Part shown: positions 14,419 to 36,962 of the stretch, in pieces
Position numbering within the stretch: position 1 is the stretch's first letter
How the letters are laid out: the number at the start of each line of letters is the position of its first letter
DNA from: Ferrimicrobium sp.
Lineage (GTDB): Bacteria > Actinomycetota > Acidimicrobiia > Acidimicrobiales > Acidimicrobiaceae
NCBI GenBank assembly: GCA_027365375.1
Contig: DAHXNM010000141.1
Location: 1-37,989, forward strand
Direction of reading: 5' to 3'
DNA: 37,989 nucleotides
Position numbers and translations under genes: made by a program
The notes under the pieces: model-generated
Databases searched by the model: none
What the model was told of the DNA's origin: nothing
The model's input: only the letters and a program-made list of their open reading frames with translations

Positions 14419-15558
14419 ATGCAGCAGCAGGCAGAAGGGCAAGGTTCGAGTGTTACTCAACTTGATGTTGAGCCTGTCGTAAGAGTGATCACCTCCGCGA
14501 TTGCCGATCCAAGCACACTTGGCATCGTAACCCAGCCGATCGTGTCTCTCGACGACGGTAGTGTGGTGGGCTATGAAACACTAGCTCGATTCGCTGGTGA
14601 GATCTCCACCGAGCGCTTGTTCGAGGAGGCTTCCGAACTTGGAATGGGTGCAGAGTTGGAGGCGATCGCTCTCGAGCGGGGTCTGGCGATGCTTCACTAT
14701 CTTCCTCACGGTTTTGTCCTCCATGTGAACGTGTCGCCAACGTATCTCGGTATGCAAGATATACATCGAATCTTGCTCGGTGCGCGATTGGATCGGGTGG
14801 TTATCGAGCTTACCGAACATATCCCAGTATCTGAGACCGGTCAGTTGCGCCGACAGCTCGCGACCTATAGGTCGCTCGGCGCACGTATAGCACTTGATGA
14901 CGCAGGTGCAGGTTACGGAGGGTTGGAGCTCATGTACGAACTCGAGCCCGACATGATCAAGATCGACAGGTTCCTCATCAGCGACATAGATCGCTCTGAC
15001 ACCAAGGCGGCTGTTGTGGCAACGCTTGTGACCTCTGCTCGAGCTAGAGGCATCAAGGTAGTTGCCGAGGGAATCGAGACCGCATCTGAGTTTGATGCTG
15101 CCTCCCGTCTAGGGATCGACCTTGGGCAGGGGTATTGGATTGCGCGACCAGCAGCGGGTTTGCCGCGGATTGATGTAGCTAAGTTGTCACGACATAGCCG
15201 CAAAGAGCGTAACGTCACTCTTGGTAGGGAGCTTGCTAGGGTAACCGAACCGGTTACAACTGCGCTGGGGAGCTCGAGTTTTGTTGGTGTGCAGTTTGGT
15301 GTCGGAGTAGACCACTACGGGAGACCATTGTTCGTTTGGTCGATAGATGTTGATGGAGTTGAACACGTTCGAAACGCGACCGAGGTTGAGTCTGGGTGCT
15401 CGATACAAGAGTGCATCAGGAGGGCCCTTGGCAGGAGTTTGGAGACCCGCTTCGATCCTTTGGTGGTGACCGACCATGCTCGGCGTGTTCTCGGCATAAC
15501 CCGACTTGAACGACTTCTCAATGTTGTGGATGCCAAACCAGGATCGGAGGCATCCTGA
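14419..15558 (+). CDS. EAL-domain cyclic-di-GMP phosphodiesterase with CBS-like C-terminus
   Basis: Residues about 30-255 form an EAL domain with every usual key residue present. These are E53 (as ETLAR), N104 (NVSP), E130 (IELTEH), D160 and D161 (LDDAGAGYGG), K181 (KID), E217 and E220 (VAEGIE), and Q237 (GQGYW). It should hydrolyse c-di-GMP. There is no membrane segment or GGDEF domain. The last 95 residues are a separate module whose end (DPLVVTDHARRVLGITRLERLL) resembles half a CBS domain, perhaps a nucleotide sensor. The stop and the next start overlap as TGATG, so it is coupled to the degenerate EAL protein that follows. Confidence 0.88.
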   Translation: MQQQAEGQGSSVTQLDVEPVVRVITSAIADPSTLGIVTQPIVSLDDGSVVGYETLARFAGEISTERLFEEASELGMGAELEAIALERGLAMLHYLPHGFVLHVNVSPTYLGMQDIHRILLGARLDRVVIELTEHIPVSETGQLRRQLATYRSLGARIALDDAGAGYGGLELMYELEPDMIKIDRFLISDIDRSDTKAAVVATLVTSARARGIKVVAEGIETASEFDAASRLGIDLGQGYWIARPAAGLPRIDVAKLSRHSRKERNVTLGRELARVTEPVTTALGSSSFVGVQFGVGVDHYGRPLFVWSIDVDGVEHVRNATEVESGCSIQECIRRALGRSLETRFDPLVVTDHARRVLGITRLERLLNVVDAKPGSEAS

Positions 15559-16496
15559 TGTCAGAGCAGATCGAGATCACACTTGCCGGAGATTGGGATT
15601 GGGAGTTGGAGGTCCGGCGCACCCTTGCCGCCCCTCACGAACTAACGACAGTTTTGGAGCCGGTGAATTCTTGTCACTCCGCACAGTTGATGGCCATTGA
15701 AGGACTGACGCGGAGCCCACGAGTCGGTTCGAAGGAGCTCTTTGCACGGGCTAGCGCCCTTGGACTCGACGTGACACTTGAGCTATGCACCCTTAACCGG
15801 CTACTACAGCGGTTCGCGGCCGAAGAGACCGAGGTGCGCCTTAGCGTTAACGTCTCTCCGTCAATTGTAGGCTCGACAGCCGTGCAGGACCTGTTTGCAC
15901 CCTGGTGTGATCGCCTTATCATCGAGATCTCTGAGGAGAACATCGTCCGAGATCCGAGAGTGGTTGCCGAGGCGGTGGCACCTCTTCGGGCCCAAGGTGC
16001 AGAGATAGCGCTCGACAACGCGGGAGTTGGCTACGGAGGATTGTCGTTGTTGGTGGCATTGGAGCCCGAGTGGGTAAAGATAGATCGTCGGCTGGTTGGT
16101 ACACTCTTGACCTCGGAGACCTCTCGTTCAATCGTACGGAATCTGTCGACGATGGCTCATAGGATTGGGTCACGCGTCATTGGCGTTGGTGTCGAGGAAG
16201 AGGCTCAGCTAGAGTTGCTGGTTGCTATTGACGTTGATTGCTGGCAGGGCTATCTCGAACAGCCTTTTGCGATGCGTCGCCCAGTAGGCGCAATAGCTGC
16301 GATGTTGCGTGAGCATCCGATTCCGCCGACTGCGACCTTTGTGGTCCAGCTCGCAGATTCGGCCTCGTTAGCGGTTGGCCAGTGGATCCGTCGTGGTGTA
16401 GCGTCGCTTGATGATGTTGCACGTGTGACCGATGGCTGCTACGAGGTAGGCTGGGTGAAATTTCGCGACCTAGTTGGCGTCGCGCGGAGTAATTAA
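15558..16496 (+). CDS. Degenerate EAL-domain protein, probably not catalytic
   Basis: This 312-residue protein is related along its length to the EAL domain just upstream. It keeps E48 (as IEGLTR), N98 (NVSP), E123 (IEISEE), D153, K174 (KID), E213 and Q230. It has Asn154 in place of the second Asp of the DD motif and Val210 in place of the Glu of AEG-I/V-E. Both lost residues help bind the metals in active EAL enzymes, so it is more likely a c-di-GMP receptor or a regulator of its partner. No N-terminal membrane segment is present. The gene is translationally coupled to the upstream EAL gene. A tandem duplication followed by decay is the simplest origin. Confidence 0.85.
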   Translation: MSEQIEITLAGDWDWELEVRRTLAAPHELTTVLEPVNSCHSAQLMAIEGLTRSPRVGSKELFARASALGLDVTLELCTLNRLLQRFAAEETEVRLSVNVSPSIVGSTAVQDLFAPWCDRLIIEISEENIVRDPRVVAEAVAPLRAQGAEIALDNAGVGYGGLSLLVALEPEWVKIDRRLVGTLLTSETSRSIVRNLSTMAHRIGSRVIGVGVEEEAQLELLVAIDVDCWQGYLEQPFAMRRPVGAIAAMLREHPIPPTATFVVQLADSASLAVGQWIRRGVASLDDVARVTDGCYEVGWVKFRDLVGVARSN

Positions 16497-30734: not shown

Positions 30735-31784
30735 CTATCCGAGTATTGACAATGAGAAAAAGTCGCCTTGCTGGTCGGTAAACGGCTCGGTGTAGACCAC
30801 ACCTGGTTTTAATGAGTTGACCGCTCGCGAGCAGTCGGCGACGAAGGGGTCACTGCCGGCGATGAACACGGCGGTGTCGGCCAGTGAAGGAGTGATGGCT
30901 TCAAGGATCCCCGGTATGCGGCCATGGTGATGTGGCTCGGTGGTGCAGGTTAGGTCATGATCATGACGTGTGTAGCTGACCTGGAGCTCAAAGTTTGAGT
31001 AGCGTCGTTTGAGGTATTCGAGTTGTCCTAACGGATAGACATCTGCTGGCGTGCGTGCTGAGAACACGAGAGTGACCGGATGTGCAAAGCCCCGTCGAAG
31101 TGCAGCCTCGGTGAGCGACATGATCGGGGCGAGGCCGGACCCGCCGGCGATCAGTAGAACGGGCGTGGCGATTGCGGGGTCACCGATGAAGGAGCCGTAA
31201 GGCCCATTTACCATGAGGGTCTCGCCGATTGATACGCGGTCGGTGAGCCAGCTGCTGGTCTGGCCGAAGGGTTCACGAGTGATGTAGAAGGTCAATTCGC
31301 CGTCGGGGCGCGGAGCATTCGCCATCGAGTAGTTGCGCAGAGGATGCTCCGGTGGCGCTCCAAGTTGCATATGTTGACCGGGCCAGAATCGGAGCGACTC
31401 GCCAACGGGGCGAAGGCGTAACTCGATGATGGAGGGGGTGCGCTCTATACGTTCTACTACGACATAGGGGACCTGTTCGCGAGGTGGGAATAGCGTCGGC
31501 TTTGCGTCCTCAGTTCCCCATTCGATCTCGAGGCACTCCGATAGCGGTTTGGCCATGCACATCGCTCCATAACCTTGCTCGCGATCCTCTTTTGAGAGAG
31601 CCATGTCTAAGACGAACCCTTGGTCGAAGGAGCCAGAGCGGACCTTAACCTTGCACTCGCCACAGGTTCCGGCCCGACAGTTGTTCGGCAGTGCCCAACC
31701 CTCGGCCTCGAGGGCGGCCAAGACGGTCATGCCATCGGGGCAGGGAATCTCATTGCCTGACGGATAGAGCCTTATTACTGACAC
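30735..31784 (-). CDS. 2Fe-2S / FAD oxygenase reductase
   Basis: The 349-residue electron-transfer protein starts with a plant-type 2Fe-2S ferredoxin domain with ligands C36, C41, C44 and C76 (CRAGTCGEC, MCMAKP). An FAD domain follows with RNYSMA at 150-155 and GPYGSF, then an NAD(P) domain with IAGGSGLAP. This domain order is that of methane monooxygenase reductase and benzoate dioxygenase reductase; PaaE of phenylacetyl-CoA epoxidase has the ferredoxin at the other end. It should pass electrons from NAD(P)H to an oxygenase. The GTG start at 31784 has AAGGAGG four bases upstream. It is divergent from the R2-like diiron gene, its likely partner. Confidence 0.9.
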   Translation of the reverse strand: MSVIRLYPSGNEIPCPDGMTVLAALEAEGWALPNNCRAGTCGECKVKVRSGSFDQGFVLDMALSKEDREQGYGAMCMAKPLSECLEIEWGTEDAKPTLFPPREQVPYVVVERIERTPSIIELRLRPVGESLRFWPGQHMQLGAPPEHPLRNYSMANAPRPDGELTFYITREPFGQTSSWLTDRVSIGETLMVNGPYGSFIGDPAIATPVLLIAGGSGLAPIMSLTEAALRRGFAHPVTLVFSARTPADVYPLGQLEYLKRRYSNFELQVSYTRHDHDLTCTTEPHHHGRIPGILEAITPSLADTAVFIAGSDPFVADCSRAVNSLKPGVVYTEPFTDQQGDFFSLSILG

Positions 31785-31921: not shown

Positions 31922-31937
31922 CCGACCGAATGGTCGG
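31922..31937. promoter_or_regulatory. Palindromic operator in front of the diiron/CoA operon
   Basis: CCGACC-GAAT-GGTCGG is a perfect inverted repeat with six-base arms and a four-base centre. It lies between a possible -10 (TACTAT near 31910) and the ribosome site, 23 bases from the GTG start of the R2-like gene and about 140 from the divergent reductase. The placement suits a TetR repressor, and the TetR gene at 35929-36540 in the same operon is the natural candidate. Confidence 0.7.
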
Positions 31938-31960: not shown

Positions 31961-32986
31961 GTGACACAGGCGCACGACGGACTCGGCGGATCGATGGAGT
32001 TTCCCCCGCCGATTGAGCAGCCAAACATCTTTCCGTTGTCGTGGGAGTCTCAGACGACGAAGCTCGAAGAGATTTGGGCCTCGGCACAGAAGGAGTACTG
32101 GGATCCAGCACGGCTTCCGTGGGACGGTCTGCGACCCGAGCAGATGTCCCCAGCAGAGCGCGAGGCGGTTGCATACTGGTTCTCGCTTCTTTCTGTGTTC
32201 GACGCATCGGCTCCACCGGTGTTCGCGACAGCCTTAGTGCATGCGTATGAGATTCATGAGGAGGATCCGGTTCGACGCGCGTTCTTCTCGATCACCCGTG
32301 ATGAGCAGAATCACGAGATAGTCTGTGGTAAGGCGATCTCACTCCTGACGCCAGGAGCCCCACTCGACTACGAACCACAGTCTGACCTGGGGCGCAGGGC
32401 AAAGCGCAACGTTGAGTGGCTCTATCACAATGGGGCTCGTTATTGGAACGGTTATAAGAAGGCGGTTCCTCGCTACTCGATGGCTGTGCTTTTTAGCTCC
32501 TTCCTGATGGGAGAGGTCGCCTCGGCTACCTTGTTCCAATACATGTTCAACCACACAACGATTCCCGTCTTCAAGGAGGCTTTCCGAGCGATAGGCCGCG
32601 ACGAGGGTCGACACATGGCGATCTGCCTTTCCCTGATGGAGCGCGACTACCCAAAGATCTCTGACGAGGATCGTTCGGTCGTGACCAAACAGATTCGGGC
32701 TGGCTATGTCTTCCTCTCCGGCATCCTTTTTGAGCCCCCATCCGATTTCTGGGACCTACCCGAAGATTTTATTTCGACACAGCGTGAGATAGAAGAGGTA
32801 GCCCGTGCAGCAGGGCTGGGTGTCGCCACCTACGATGAGAAGTTAGAGAATTGGCGCCAAGCGATGCTAAACGTCAAGGGAGTGCTGGAACGATATGACA
32901 TTCCGTTCCCGGCTATCCCTGAGGTTGGAATCTCTGGAGAGGAAGTCACGGACGTAAATTGGGACGAGATAATTCCAGTCTTTTAG
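31961..32986 (+). CDS. R2-like diiron carboxylate protein, putative oxygenase or oxidase
   Basis: This is a 341-residue ferritin-like four-helix protein of the ribonucleotide reductase R2/R2lox kind. Metal ligands can be assigned as D81 (SVFDAS), E115 and H118 (DEQNH), E185 (LMGEVAS), and E215 and H218 (IGRDEGRHM, close to R2lox IGDDERRHM). The place of the R2 radical tyrosine, four residues after the first His, is C122, so a normal radical R2 is unlikely. No large ribonucleotide reductase subunit is near. A GTG start at 31961 follows AAGGGGAG. It opens a CoA-degradation operon and faces an oxygenase reductase, so I infer a diiron oxygenase on an acyl- or aryl-CoA. This role is not established. 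Confidence 0.75.
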   Translation: MTQAHDGLGGSMEFPPPIEQPNIFPLSWESQTTKLEEIWASAQKEYWDPARLPWDGLRPEQMSPAEREAVAYWFSLLSVFDASAPPVFATALVHAYEIHEEDPVRRAFFSITRDEQNHEIVCGKAISLLTPGAPLDYEPQSDLGRRAKRNVEWLYHNGARYWNGYKKAVPRYSMAVLFSSFLMGEVASATLFQYMFNHTTIPVFKEAFRAIGRDEGRHMAICLSLMERDYPKISDEDRSVVTKQIRAGYVFLSGILFEPPSDFWDLPEDFISTQREIEEVARAAGLGVATYDEKLENWRQAMLNVKGVLERYDIPFPAIPEVGISGEEVTDVNWDEIIPVF

Positions 32987-33834
32987 GCCGAGATCTAGAC
33001 ATACGCATTGGGGTAGTTGGTGGGGGAACCATGGGTTCGTCTATCGCCTCCCAGGTGCTGATGTCTGGATTGTGGGTCACCGTTATCGAGGCCAAGTCAG
33101 ATGCAGCACGACGTGCGCAAGATCGTATCGTCGCCACCATCGACCGGGCCCGCCAGAACGGCTTCACCGATATCTCCAGCGAGGTCATAGAGGAGCGGCT
33201 CTCTGTCGTGACCGACTACGAGCAACTCGTCGGGTCATCTATCGTGATCGAGAGTGTGCCAGAGATCGTTGAGCTAAAGCGCGAGGTCATCACCCGAATC
33301 CGACGGGCGATAGGTCCTGATACGCCGGTCGGATCCAATACCTCCTCGATCGCTATCGGCAGCCTTCAAGAGGGGCTGCCTGGGGCTGAGAGTATCGGCG
33401 GACTTCACTTCTTTAACCCGGTACCAGCATCGGCGTTGATCGAGATAGTGGTAGGGCCGTTGACAGGTTTGCCCGTCGTTGATCTTTTTGGGGAGCTTGC
33501 CAGGTTGCTCGGCAAGGAGGCGATCGTCGTCAACGATGCTCCTGGATTCGCCACCTCAAGGCTGGGAGTTGCACTCGGGCTCGAGGCTATTCGGATGCTC
33601 GAAGACCAGGTGGCGAGTGCTGCTGATATCGATCAAGCGATGGTGCTCGGCTACAGGCACCCAATTGGTCCGTTGCGCCTTACCGACCTGGTTGGTCTCG
33701 ACGTCAGGCTGGCGATTGCCCGATATCTCGAACAGATGCTTGGAGAGCGATTCACGCCGCCGAAACTTCTGATCTCGATGGTCGAGGCTGGTCGCCTTGG
33801 GAAGAAGTCTGGAGAGGGCTTCTTTGTCTGGTGA
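32959..33834 (+). CDS. 3-hydroxyacyl-CoA dehydrogenase (PaaH/FadB2-like)
   Basis: This is an NAD-dependent dehydrogenase of about 280-291 residues. The Rossmann motif is IGVVGGGTMGSSIA and the catalytic His sits in GGLHFFNPVP. TSRLGVALGLEAIRML and the GYRHPIGPLRLTDLVGLD block form the C-terminal domain. It oxidises 3-hydroxyacyl-CoA to 3-ketoacyl-CoA, the PaaH step in phenylacetate breakdown. The only normal in-frame start is TTG at 32959, overlapping the R2-like gene by 28 bases with a poor ribosome site, so initiation may depend on coupling. The conserved domain starts only at about residue 15. Confidence 0.9.
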   Translation: MGRDNSSLLGRDLDIRIGVVGGGTMGSSIASQVLMSGLWVTVIEAKSDAARRAQDRIVATIDRARQNGFTDISSEVIEERLSVVTDYEQLVGSSIVIESVPEIVELKREVITRIRRAIGPDTPVGSNTSSIAIGSLQEGLPGAESIGGLHFFNPVPASALIEIVVGPLTGLPVVDLFGELARLLGKEAIVVNDAPGFATSRLGVALGLEAIRMLEDQVASAADIDQAMVLGYRHPIGPLRLTDLVGLDVRLAIARYLEQMLGERFTPPKLLISMVEAGRLGKKSGEGFFVW

Positions 33835-34621
33835 TGCTAGTCACGAGGAGGCCGCGACCTCTGTTTCATCGTCTCAGGCCGCGCAGAGCCAGCCTCTGGT
33901 GATTGTTACCGAGAGCGAGGGGGCGCTTAATCTCGGCCTGAACCGGCCAGACAAACGCAATGCGCTCTCGCTCGCGCTGGTGGACCAGCTTCGTCATGCT
34001 ATTGAGACCCGTCGGAATCGACCTGCAGTCTTGTTGTTGACCTCGACGACACCAGGAATGTTTATTGCTGGTGCAGACATCGGCGAGCTTAATGATCGTG
34101 GTGAAGAGGAGGCCTTCCAAGCGATCAACGTAGAGCTCTTCAATGCTATTGCGCGCTGGCGATGGCCAACCATAGCCGTCATCGATGGACCAGCGTTTGG
34201 AGGTGGGTTGGAGTGCGCGCTCGCGTGCGATCTGCGTGTCGCCTCCCCCACGGCTCGATTTGCTCAGCCGGAGCTTGGACTCGGTATCCTGGCGGGAGCA
34301 GGAGGGAATTGGCGTCTACCTGAGCTCGTAGGCCAGGGGATCGCGCGAAGGATGTTATACCTTGGTGAGGTTCTGGATGCCTCAACTGGGTACTCGGTCG
34401 GTCTCGTTGATCAGCTCTCTGAGGAACCTCTTGCTGCCGCGATTGCCTGGGCGAACGTCATTGGTTCGAAACCCTGGCGGGCGCTAGAGATAACGAAGTT
34501 AGCGTTGGCGACTGGGGGGCACGACTCTACCCGCGTAGTGGATATTTTGGGACAGGCGATTCTCTTTGAATCCGAGGAGAAGCGAGTCCGGATGCAGAGG
34601 TTTTTGAAGCCGAGTCATTAA
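33824..34621 (+). CDS. Enoyl-CoA hydratase (PaaF-like)
   Basis: This is a crotonase-fold enzyme of 265 residues. The oxyanion loops are FIAGADI and GPAFGGG. Both catalytic glutamates of enoyl-CoA hydratase are present at the right 20-residue spacing: GGGLE and AQPE. The turn LGILAGAGGNWRL matches the family. It should add water to a trans-2-enoyl-CoA. I choose TTG at 33824 because GGAGAGG lies six bases before it; it overlaps the dehydrogenase gene by 11 bases. A TTG at 33797 is the alternative. The first 20 residues (Ser, Ala and Gln-rich) are extra. Confidence 0.9.
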   Translation: MSGDASHEEAATSVSSSQAAQSQPLVIVTESEGALNLGLNRPDKRNALSLALVDQLRHAIETRRNRPAVLLLTSTTPGMFIAGADIGELNDRGEEEAFQAINVELFNAIARWRWPTIAVIDGPAFGGGLECALACDLRVASPTARFAQPELGLGILAGAGGNWRLPELVGQGIARRMLYLGEVLDASTGYSVGLVDQLSEEPLAAAIAWANVIGSKPWRALEITKLALATGGHDSTRVVDILGQAILFESEEKRVRMQRFLKPSH

Positions 34622-34643
34622 TAGATGATGAAAGGTGGGTATT

Positions 34644-35129
34644 ATGCGCGAGTTTGCGTTGTCTGAGCGCTATCCGATCCTCTACAAGGGTTATGGCGAG
34701 ATCTCTGTTGGAGACAGGCAGGCTACTCGGGGCCGAACTATCACCGAGGGCGATATCACAAGCTGGTGCGCGCTTACAGGAGACTGGTTCTACCTGCATA
34801 CTGATGCAGAGGCCGCCAAGGCGTCGGTATTTCAGCAGGTTGTTGCCCCTGGTATCATGGTTTTTGCGATGGCAACTGGCCTTGCAGTTCCCGCAGACTC
34901 GACTGCCATCATCGCCAACTATGGCTCTGACTCGATTCGCTATCCACACCCAACGTTTGTCGGTGATACGATTCACCTCGAGGCGGAGGTAGTCGCGAAA
35001 GACGATAAGGGGGATGATCGTGGGGTGGTGTCGCTGCGTTGGCAGGTGATCAACCAGAACGGAGTCCTCGTCTGCACCAGTGTGCTGAAGGTGCTCGTCG
35101 CTCGAGAGGTCCCCGCTTATGGCGTTTGA
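34644..35129 (+). CDS. MaoC-like (R)-hydratase domain protein
   Basis: It is a 161-residue single hot-dog domain. The MaoC/hydratase-2 dyad Asp-x4-His is in LTGDWFYLHTD, followed by APGIMVFAMATGL and YPHPTFVGDTIHLEAEV. Such proteins hydrate enoyl-CoA or ring-opened CoA thioesters. In phenylacetate breakdown a MaoC domain forms the C-terminal half of PaaZ and opens the oxepin ring; here it stands alone without the PaaZ aldehyde dehydrogenase. The ATG at 34644 follows AAAGGTGG; a GTG at 34635 is possible. The end overlaps the next gene by 11 bases. Confidence 0.88.
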   Translation: MREFALSERYPILYKGYGEISVGDRQATRGRTITEGDITSWCALTGDWFYLHTDAEAAKASVFQQVVAPGIMVFAMATGLAVPADSTAIIANYGSDSIRYPHPTFVGDTIHLEAEVVAKDDKGDDRGVVSLRWQVINQNGVLVCTSVLKVLVAREVPAYGV

Positions 35130-35925
35130 GCGTAGCCTGCCGCTGGAGCTAGCCACCGATGAGCCGGTAGCCTTTGGGGTCGGCGTTGACCTCGCCGAGC
35201 TGTGGCTCAACCGGCCAGCTAGGTTGAATGCCAGCTCAGATGAGATGGTGCGGTCGATCGACTTAGCGTTAGATGCAATCGCTGAACGCTCCCCACGTGT
35301 TCTAGTCGTTGGCGGAGCGGGGCGAGCCTTCTGTGCCGGACGTGACCTCGCCGATGCTCACCCAGAGGATGAGGATGCCGAGGAGATACTCGCCAACGTC
35401 TATAACCCACTGATACTGCGGCTAGCAGGCCTGGACGTGATTACCATAGCCGCGGTGCATGGTGCTGTCCTCGGCACTGGGCTGGGGTTGGCGCTGGCAT
35501 GTGATTTCGTCATCGCCTCGAGCTCCAGCCGGTGGGGATCACCGTTTGCGCGAATTGGCGCGGTCCTAGACTCCGGCGGTCACTACTTTTTCGGGCGGCT
35601 GGGGCACCAGCGGATTATGGAGCTGATCCTGCTCGGCGAGCTATTCGATGGGAGCGATGCATTCAGGTATGGGCTCGCCTCTCGGGTCGTGGACGATGAG
35701 CATTTTGAGGAGGAGGTCGAGCGATATGTCCAACGTGTTGCGCACGGACCAACCCAAGCCTTTCTAGCCTCTAAGCGGATCTTGAACCGGGAACGGATTC
35801 CCAAACTCGCCGAGGTGCTTGCGATGGAGGCCGAGGCCCAAGGTGGCTGTGCGAGGACTCTGGACTACGCGACAGGCATTCGTTCCTTCGTTGGACACCA
35901 AGAACCTCATTTCGAAGGATGCTAG
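35119..35925 (+). CDS. Enoyl-CoA isomerase-type crotonase (PaaG-like)
   Basis: The protein has 268 residues and a crotonase fold with GRAFCAGRDLADA and HGAVLGTGLGLALACDF. Where hydratases have their two glutamates it has Gly (GTGLG) and Phe (SPF), so hydration is unlikely. An Asp in the turn AVLDSGGHYF matches the acidic residue of PaaG-type isomerases. PaaG turns the epoxide of phenylacetyl-CoA into an oxepin and also shifts double bonds. The ATG at 35119 overlaps the MaoC gene, and the stop is three bases from the TetR start. The pair of crotonases thus appears specialised, one hydratase and one isomerase. Confidence 0.88.
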   Translation: MAFERSLPLELATDEPVAFGVGVDLAELWLNRPARLNASSDEMVRSIDLALDAIAERSPRVLVVGGAGRAFCAGRDLADAHPEDEDAEEILANVYNPLILRLAGLDVITIAAVHGAVLGTGLGLALACDFVIASSSSRWGSPFARIGAVLDSGGHYFFGRLGHQRIMELILLGELFDGSDAFRYGLASRVVDDEHFEEEVERYVQRVAHGPTQAFLASKRILNRERIPKLAEVLAMEAEAQGGCARTLDYATGIRSFVGHQEPHFEGC

Positions 35926-35928
35926 CCG

Positions 35929-36540
35929 GTGGTCGATTCAGCGGCTGATGAGCGCCGTCAGGAGATCGCAAGTTTGGCGGTGAGTCGGTTTGCGCTGCGC
36001 GGCTTTGACGGTACGTCGATGAGTGATCTCGCCCGCCATGTCGGGCTCTCAAAGGCGGGTATCTATCACTACTTTCCTAGCAAGGAGGCGATCCTTTTCG
36101 AGGCACTCCTCGGGCATTCGGAGAGGCTCCTGGCTACGGTGCTCGATGCCGTTGATCGGGGCGGAGATCCATCTGAGAGACTCGGGAGAGTTGTAGAGGT
36201 GATACTGTACCTCTATCAAGACGCTGACGCCTATCATCAAGCTCAGGTCAACGACCTAGCTCGACTGCCCGAGTCCGAGCAGGAGGTTATCCGCAACAAC
36301 GAACGACAGGTGGTCCGGGTGATGGAGGAGCTGCTTGGCCAGCTTGGGGCAGGGTTGGAGATATCGACGATCAAGGCTCTCACCATGTCGACGTTTGGCA
36401 TTCTCAACTGGCATGCTCGCTGGTTCCGTGAAGGACCTGGCAGGATCGAGCTGGTGGAGTACGCGAAGCTGGTGACTGAGTTTGTTCTTGCTGGGATGAC
36501 TGGAGTAGTAGCGATGAGGGCGATGGAGGTTGGACCATGA
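35929..36540 (+). CDS. TetR-family regulator of the CoA-degradation operon
   Basis: This is a 203-residue TetR protein. The DNA-binding domain lies at about 9-56 (RFALRGFDGTSMSDLARHVG, then SKAGIYHYFPSKEAIL). The C-terminal ligand domain has GILNWHARWFREGPGRIE, a pattern I associate with acyl-CoA-responsive regulators such as KstR2 and PaaR. It lies inside the operon: GTG three bases after the isomerase stop and ATGA overlap with the PaaI gene. It likely represses the operon through the palindrome at 31922-31937 and is released by a CoA ester intermediate; this is inferred from position. Confidence 0.9.
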   Translation: MVDSAADERRQEIASLAVSRFALRGFDGTSMSDLARHVGLSKAGIYHYFPSKEAILFEALLGHSERLLATVLDAVDRGGDPSERLGRVVEVILYLYQDADAYHQAQVNDLARLPESEQEVIRNNERQVVRVMEELLGQLGAGLEISTIKALTMSTFGILNWHARWFREGPGRIELVEYAKLVTEFVLAGMTGVVAMRAMEVGP

Positions 36541-36962
36541 CCGAACAGGAGCTCGCGGAGGCGTGTGCTCGGGCGATGTACGCACGTGATCTGGCGTCTC
36601 AGTCGCTAGGGATTGAGCTCGTTAGGGTTGGTCCAGGCAGCGCCAGCCTGACGATGGAGGTCACCGACACCATGGTGAATGGGCACAGGATATGTCATGG
36701 TGGCTACATTTTCTTGCTTGCTGATACCGCCTTCGCGTTCGCTTGCAACACCTACAACTTGGTGACTGTGGCTCAGAGTGCAGCGGTGGAGTTTATCGCC
36801 CCGGTCTACCGTTCAGATAGGCTCGTTGCGATTGCCAATGAGGTTACTCGGTATGGGAGGAATGGTCTCTACGACATTACGATCGAACGTGAGGGCGAGA
36901 CCATTGCTATCTTCCATGGTCGATCGCGATCGTTGGGACAACCGGTTCTAGAGGAGGAGTGA
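36537..36962 (+). CDS. paaI: PaaI-type acyl-CoA thioesterase
   Basis: This is a 141-residue hot-dog thioesterase with strong likeness to Escherichia coli PaaI: 'MVNGHRICHGGYIF' then 'LLADTAFAFACN'. The Asp of LADTAFA and the CHGG His lie in the active site. PaaI releases CoA from stalled hydroxyphenylacetyl-CoA intermediates, a safety valve against CoA depletion and toxic oxygenated products. It is coupled to the TetR gene by an ATGA overlap and two bases before the thiolase start. Its presence is the best single pointer to an aromatic-CoA substrate. Confidence 0.92.
   Translation: MTEQELAEACARAMYARDLASQSLGIELVRVGPGSASLTMEVTDTMVNGHRICHGGYIFLLADTAFAFACNTYNLVTVAQSAAVEFIAPVYRSDRLVAIANEVTRYGRNGLYDITIEREGETIAIFHGRSRSLGQPVLEEE

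Follow-up and report, generated by a model that had tools for sequence, protein, structure and literature searches.

R2L and the reductase encoded beside it probably make up a two-component diiron-type oxygenase, and the main clade of R2L proteins most likely serves as a phenylacetyl-CoA epoxidase that does the job of PaaABCDE. R2L is our working name for the R2-like oxygenase component encoded in the window, i.e., the whole 37,989-nucleotide stretch of Ferrimicrobium sp. DNA that was analyzed, and for its relatives. This reading is built on the sequence of the protein, its predicted fold, the invariance of its residues, its gene neighborhood, and the absence of PaaA from many of the genomes that carry it.

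Invariant residues and predicted fold of R2L

The R2L open reading frame begins with GTG and encodes 341 amino acids without internal stops, in the frame and at the coordinates given in Table 1. A scan of GTDB genomes identified 42 relatives, which were 56 to 95% identical. The putative ligands D81, E115, H118, E185, E215, and H218, along with C122, were found to be invariant in 43/43 R2L sequences, and D114, E119, D214, and C222 were likewise invariant. All of these residues were kept in six further or more distant members, including those of Variovorax and Nonomuraea, giving a set of 49 sequences (the 43 family members plus plasmid and genome members). The original prediction of an R2-like protein with this ligand set and a cysteine at the position of the R2 radical tyrosine was thus borne out across the family. 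It noted C122 and overlooked a second invariant cysteine, C222, which also lies four residues after a histidine; both ExxH helices read E-x-x-H-x-x-x-C. The tyrosines Y72, Y161, and Y172 are invariant as well. In PLSDB/RefSeq, R2L is annotated as a "hypothetical protein."

Structure prediction, which had been named as a check, supported a helical R2-like fold. The AlphaFold2 model, built from a 42-row alignment, had a pLDDT of 85 and a pTM of 0.83, and its helices 102-129, 174-198, and 202-232 hold E115-H118-C122, E185, and E215-H218-C222, respectively. Because E115, H118, and C122 are residues i, i+3, and i+7 of one confidently predicted helix, they should share a helix face. The part of the predicted ligand set that became less certain is D81 as the first ligand: it is the last residue of helix 64-81, where the pLDDT is about 80, and the R2 aspartate is paired with S78 instead of D81 in a weak profile alignment to Escherichia coli NrdB. 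In a Foldseek search against the PDB, the top matches of the model were class I R2 chains, with TM scores of 0.4 to 0.54, and R2lox was also listed.

The cysteine has a precedent in the soluble methane monooxygenase (sMMO) hydroxylase MmoX, in which the stretch L-D-E144-I-R-H147-T-H-Q-C151 has the same ExxHxxxC pattern as R2L and puts a cysteine at the R2 radical tyrosine position with the spacing of C122. Since MmoX is an O2-activating diiron hydroxylase, this precedent points to an oxygenase and requires no exotic cofactor. We therefore set aside the idea, raised in the original prediction, of an unusual cysteine-containing cofactor. The oxygenase or oxidase chemistry that had been offered beside it gained ground from the adjoining reductase, the paa neighborhood, and the lack of PaaABCDE in many carriers. 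What a cysteine does at the position of R2 Tyr122 and MMO Cys151 is a long-standing question for methane monooxygenase, and R2L would provide a natural test of it.

R2L falls outside the known families compared

Family membership was judged from sequence, in part by the curated cut-offs of Pfam and NCBIfam. The Pfam matches of R2L, to AurF, rubrerythrin, and R2, were all weak and under their cut-offs; no NCBIfam model matched, and a PDB sequence search with R2L returned no real relative. The best Pfam match was to AurF (PF11583), with 25.8 bits against a gathering score of 29.6. AurF arylamine N-oxygenases carry an extra, seventh ligand, a histidine four residues before the Glu of the last ExxH; the corresponding position of R2L, 211, is Ile in 42/43 sequences, and membership in that family was rejected. 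PaaA and PaaC were also rejected, as R2L had no PF05138 match at an E value of ≤0.1, no TIGR02156 match, and no profile similarity to PaaA. The same was the case for BoxB (no TIGR03225 match in NCBIfam and no profile similarity) and for the bacterial multicomponent monooxygenases of PF02332 (no Phenol_Hydrox match in Pfam). Among the few proteins compared with R2L by profile, the nearest was a ferritin-like 356-amino-acid protein with two DEARH motifs, encoded in the same genome as the window (contig C36, L082:886-1956).

It is conceivable that R2L is a divergent ribonucleotide reductase (RNR) R2 or an R2lox-type oxidase that lies near catabolic genes by chance, as its best Foldseek matches in the PDB are R2 proteins, with R2lox listed, and it matches PF00268 weakly. 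That match, however, scores 15.9 bits against a cut-off of 33.6, and the radical tyrosine of R2 is replaced by Cys in 49/49 sequences. As had been noted originally, no NrdA is encoded nearby, none being present among the open reading frames listed for the window; no R2 over the PF00268 cut-off was found in the genome of the window organism. R2lox proteins have their cross-link tyrosine five residues before the third carboxylate, where R2L has an invariant serine, S180. The catabolic neighborhood and the partner reductase, moreover, recur across phyla. We consider an R2 or R2lox identity highly improbable.

Operon and proposed partner reductase in the window

The R2L gene of the window is followed by genes for a paa-like lower pathway and faces away from the reductase gene, which is divergently oriented (Table 1). 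The PDB relatives of this reductase are the benzoate dioxygenase reductase, the T4MO electron transfer component, and MMO component C. Its cluster occurs near R2L in 30/43 loci, in most of them immediately downstream (21 to 340 bp) and co-oriented.

Table 1. Positions of the R2L gene, its putative active-site codons, and neighboring features in the window
Feature	Position	Strand	Basis
Proposed electron donor: NAD(P)H reductase of the BenC/MmoC/T4MO-F type, [2Fe-2S] ferredoxin domain at the N terminus plus FAD and NAD domains	30735..31784	-	Pfam Fer2, FAD_binding_6, NAD_binding_1
Candidate TetR/PaaR operator upstream of R2L (CCGACC-N4-GGTCGG, 16-bp inverted repeat)	31922..31937		Sole match in window
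R2L, R2-like oxygenase component, 341 aa	31961..32986	+	ORF; family of 43-49; AlphaFold2 model; Foldseek
Codon of D81, putative first metal ligand (least certain)	32201..32203	+	Invariant 49/49; structural position uncertain
E115xxH118, putative ligand motif	32303..32314	+	Invariant; inside helix 102-129
Codon of C122, R2 radical Tyr position	32324..32326	+	Cys 49/49; spacing as for C151 of sMMO hydroxylase
Codon of E185, putative ligand	32513..32515	+	Invariant; helix 174-198
E215xxH218, putative ligand motif	32603..32614	+	Invariant; helix 202-232
Codon of C222, second invariant Cys at His+4	32624..32626	+	Cys 49/49
3-Hydroxyacyl-CoA dehydrogenase (PaaH-like, short form)	32959..33834	+	Pfam 3HCDH_N/3HCDH; TIGR02279 180 bits, below cut-off
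Enoyl-CoA hydratase (PaaF-like)	33797..34621	+	ECH_1; NF007239 127.6 bits, below cut-off
Stand-alone MaoC hydratase, like C-terminal (oxepin-CoA hydrolase, ring-opening) half of PaaZ	34635..35129	+	TIGR02278 positions 523-664, E 1.8e-27
PaaG-like isomerase; best model PaaG, below cut-off	35119..35925	+	TIGR02280 E 7.7e-53
TetR regulator, candidate PaaR	35929..36540	+	TetR_N, TetR_C_24; same cluster adjoins R2L in further loci
PaaI thioesterase	36537..36962	+	TIGR02286 140.3 bits, over cut-off 118.9
3-Oxoadipyl-CoA thiolase PaaJ/PcaF, truncated at contig end	36959..37989	+	Cluster membership; full copy in L001 over TIGR02430 cut-off

The inverted repeat upstream of R2L is a perfect palindrome and the single match in the window when up to one mismatch is allowed (0.16 expected). 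It lies beside a GTGCTACTATTGTA box, and both are kept at the same place in the near relatives L001 and L002, where the flanks differ. In Burkholderia, PaaR acts via inverted repeats in the paa promoters (PMC2770484), which makes this palindrome a likely candidate operator of the TetR protein of the operon.

In the window organism, whose genome is an 84% complete metagenome-assembled genome (MAG), R2L likely catalyzes the same kind of reaction with a thioester that resembles phenylacetyl-CoA. We are less sure of its exact substrate, since neither this genome nor its two nearest relatives have a PaaK at an E value of ≤1e-120; the PaaG-like protein is under the cut-off in all three. Elsewhere in the window, at 14419-16496, two adjacent genes resemble, by eye, those for EAL-domain cyclic-di-GMP phosphodiesterases.

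R2L in the paa clusters of other bacteria

Core paa genes were present within the fetched flank in 25/43 R2L loci, and paaX in 13, with the PaaK, PaaJ, PaaH, PaaF, PaaZ, PaaX, and PaaN representatives near R2L being over the NCBIfam cut-offs. Several of these clusters were full but lacked paaABCDE, such as those of Sedimenticola (L018, with paaK, J, H, G, and F; paaZ, R2L, and the reductase gene; and paaX), of Alcaligenaceae CGII-47 (a complete paa cluster with R2L), and of locus L055 (paaN, G, H, J, K, and X with R2L and the reductase gene); PaaN, G, H, J, K, and X, R2L, and the reductase are encoded together in genome G317. On the other hand, paaABCDE adjoins R2L in four loci (L004, L008, L025, and L029) and on a Vitreoscilla plasmid (L043).

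Other gene contexts were found as well. In a Paraburkholderia/Dechloromonas clade, R2L is accompanied by a CoA-transferase, a PaaK paralogue, MaoC, and an SCP2-type thiolase, and the copies of an Obscuribacterales/Variovorax clade have other contexts; these two clades may use other substrates. On two Variovorax plasmids (L044 and L045, at about 10-21 kb), the genes for R2L and the reductase are grouped with those for an indolepyruvate ferredoxin oxidoreductase, a transporter of the Liv type, MaoC, ECH, an OB-fold protein, a thiolase, and an AMP-binding ligase, to which L045 adds PaaN and a CoA-transferase. This grouping looks like an island for the catabolism of an arylpyruvate-derived acyl-CoA. 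An ABC transporter of the branched-chain amino acid type (LivHMGF/K), a candidate importer of phenylacetate or aromatic acids, adjoins R2L or its paa cluster in L010, L014, L015, L017, L023, L030, and L042. One of these loci, L015, is on a contig labeled Stygiobacter (Ignavibacteriota) and is nearly identical to that of Magnetospirillum sulfuroxidans; the contig is probably mis-binned.

Occurrence of R2L relative to PaaABCDE

PaaA was over the cut-off in 12/42 R2L genomes, with weak or fragmentary matches in eight more, and R2L and PaaABCDE occurred together in 11 to 12 genomes; Marinospirillum minutulum is one host with both. Where they coexist, R2L may be an isoenzyme, perhaps one for low oxygen levels, or it may have another role or act on another aryl-CoA. 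In contrast, 16/43 R2L genomes had PaaK and PaaG over the cut-offs and no PaaA homologue at an E value of ≤1e-3, and nine of these lacked BoxB too; many R2L genomes are incomplete MAGs, which bears on such counts of absence. The 16 include the isolates M. sulfuroxidans J10 and Alcaligenaceae CGII-47, as well as Sedimenticola selenatireducens DSM 17993, which has BoxB and lacks PaaA. In the R2L tree, PaaA-positive and PaaA-negative carriers are mixed within single clades, e.g., Marinobacter (L007) with Alcaligenaceae (L023), and this mixing fits the transfer of one function.

Among 55 Magnetospirillaceae genomes, R2L was found in 8, PaaG in 25, and PaaA at an E value of ≤1e-40 in none. All eight R2L carriers were PaaG positive (Fisher P = 9e-4, with the significance inflated by relatedness), and they had operons of the PaaN-G-H-J-K type, except for G276, in which PaaN and PaaG are encoded beside R2L and a box cluster. 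Taken alone, PaaG was rejected as a paa pathway marker because most PaaG copies in the R2L-negative Magnetospirillaceae, at least 12/17, sit in boxABC clusters (BoxB confirmed). PaaK alone proved weak, with PaaA missing from 4/14 R2L-negative, PaaK-positive gammaproteobacteria, and the comparison of PaaK-positive genomes with and without R2L was not significant (P = 0.10). In a sample of gammaproteobacteria, R2L was rare (1/229, the center genome only).

One alternative is that R2L is an aryl-CoA monooxygenase for which phenylacetyl-CoA is not the main substrate. It would act instead on a related compound, e.g., hydroxyphenylacetyl-CoA, indoleacetyl-CoA, or a different aryl-acetyl-CoA, whose degradation continues through a paa-like lower pathway. 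This would agree with the genomes in which R2L stands beside PaaABCDE, the separate gene sets of Paraburkholderia and Dechloromonas, the indolepyruvate ferredoxin oxidoreductase gene near the Variovorax R2L, and the window genome without a canonical PaaK. However, the 16 PaaK- and PaaG-positive genomes have no PaaA to supply the substrate of PaaG, and the known effector of PaaX, encoded within 13 of the R2L loci, is phenylacetyl-CoA itself. We regard this alternative as unlikely.

Another reading makes R2L an accessory paa protein, i.e., a scavenger of O2 or of the epoxide, or a regulator, with an undetected enzyme performing the epoxidation. A helper is conceivable because PaaABCDE, besides forming the epoxide, also takes the oxygen back out of it (PMC9493321), and solo PaaA-like proteins in some paa operons without R2L indicate that unknown oxygenases exist. 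The dedicated adjoining reductase and the fully conserved putative ligand set, however, argue for catalysis, and carriers such as G023 and G042 lack PaaA as well as BoxB. We find an accessory role quite improbable.

The solo proteins are divergent members of the PaaA_PaaC family, 24 to 28% identical to PaaA, encoded in paa operons of G126 (L086:3112-3948) and G279 (L091:18424-19359), the latter being an exception among the R2L-negative Magnetospirillaceae. Neither genome had an R2L match or a PaaA at the strict cut-off used. Related proteins are encoded by Azospirillum TSO22-1 (L059:5641-6462) and by Obscuribacter (L060:4406-5158). The solo proteins are possibly a second nonstandard epoxidase.

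Proposed reaction and significance

The epoxide used by PaaG must have a maker in PaaA-less genomes, and R2L, given its fold, site, reductase, association with PaaX, and distribution, is the most economical candidate. As an epoxidase, R2L would convert phenylacetyl-CoA, O2, and NAD(P)H to ring-1,2-epoxyphenylacetyl-CoA, the substrate of PaaG. The reductase would donate the electrons, reducing a dimetal site formed by D81, E115, H118, E185, E215, and H218; O2 would then give rise to a peroxo or high-valent intermediate at the reduced site, and this intermediate would epoxidize the CoA-bound ring. PaaG would yield the oxepin, which could be opened by PaaZ/PaaN or by a stand-alone MaoC hydratase, with PaaF, PaaH, and PaaJ completing the pathway. 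Located on the ligand-bearing helix face in place of the oxidizable tyrosine of R2, C122 may favor attack on the substrate over radical storage. We infer the metal, the use of O2, the substrate, and the product of R2L from the lines of evidence above.

The aerobic phenylacetate pathway has been reported for about 16% of the bacteria sequenced, and PaaABC(D)E is the epoxidase named in reviews (PMC9493321). A 2026 survey selected on PaaA and PaaC, which it proposed to be robust pathway markers, and listed some clusters without an epoxidase module, naming no replacement (PMC13186573). The PaaA-less R2L genomes described here would be missed by such a selection. The new enzyme brought to light by the GapMind work was an oxepin-CoA hydrolase rather than an epoxidase (PMC9007349). 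In the open-access literature, we found neither a description of R2L nor an alternative phenylacetyl-CoA epoxidase.

On balance, we favor the view that R2L and its reductase represent a new, nonhomologous family of phenylacetyl-CoA epoxidases, having an R2-type dimetal site with C122 and C222 beside it, that reached at least three phyla by horizontal transfer and fills the place of the "missing epoxidase" in paa pathways without PaaABCDE; PaaA and PaaC would thus be unreliable markers. If so, a key step in the degradation of pollutants and amino acids has a second, unrelated enzyme, and such an oxygenase, having a single subunit and a dedicated reductase, would offer a simpler means of producing aryl-CoA epoxides, oxepins, and tropone precursors.

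Comparison with known systems

R2L shares the R2 fold with class I RNR R2, its top Foldseek match, and with R2lox, which also has a similar ligand pattern and for which oxygenase chemistry has been reported in one member, an alkane monooxygenase (PMC10867098). It differs from R2lox in that its first putative ligand is Asp rather than Glu, and in lacking both the cross-link tyrosine and an R2lox-like gene context. With PaaABC(D)E (PaaA, TIGR02156/PF05138), it shares the location in the paa catabolon and a reductase of its own with Fer2, FAD, and NAD domains (PaaE in PaaABC(D)E), and it would likewise use ferritin-like diiron catalysis. R2L, however, has one oxygenase subunit with no PaaB, PaaC, or PaaD partners seen, and the Fer2 domain is N-terminal in its reductase (the BenC order) but C-terminal in PaaE. 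In organization, the proposed system would be like the benzoyl-CoA 2,3-epoxidase BoxAB, a two-component aryl-CoA epoxidase made of a diiron oxygenase and a reductase, yet it is unrelated in sequence to BoxB as well as to PaaA, and R2L is shorter than BoxB (341 versus about 473 amino acids) and has other pathway neighbors. Soluble methane monooxygenase has an MmoC-like reductase such as that found beside R2L, whereas no MmoB, MmoY, or MmoZ was seen with R2L, in which C222 provides a second cysteine.
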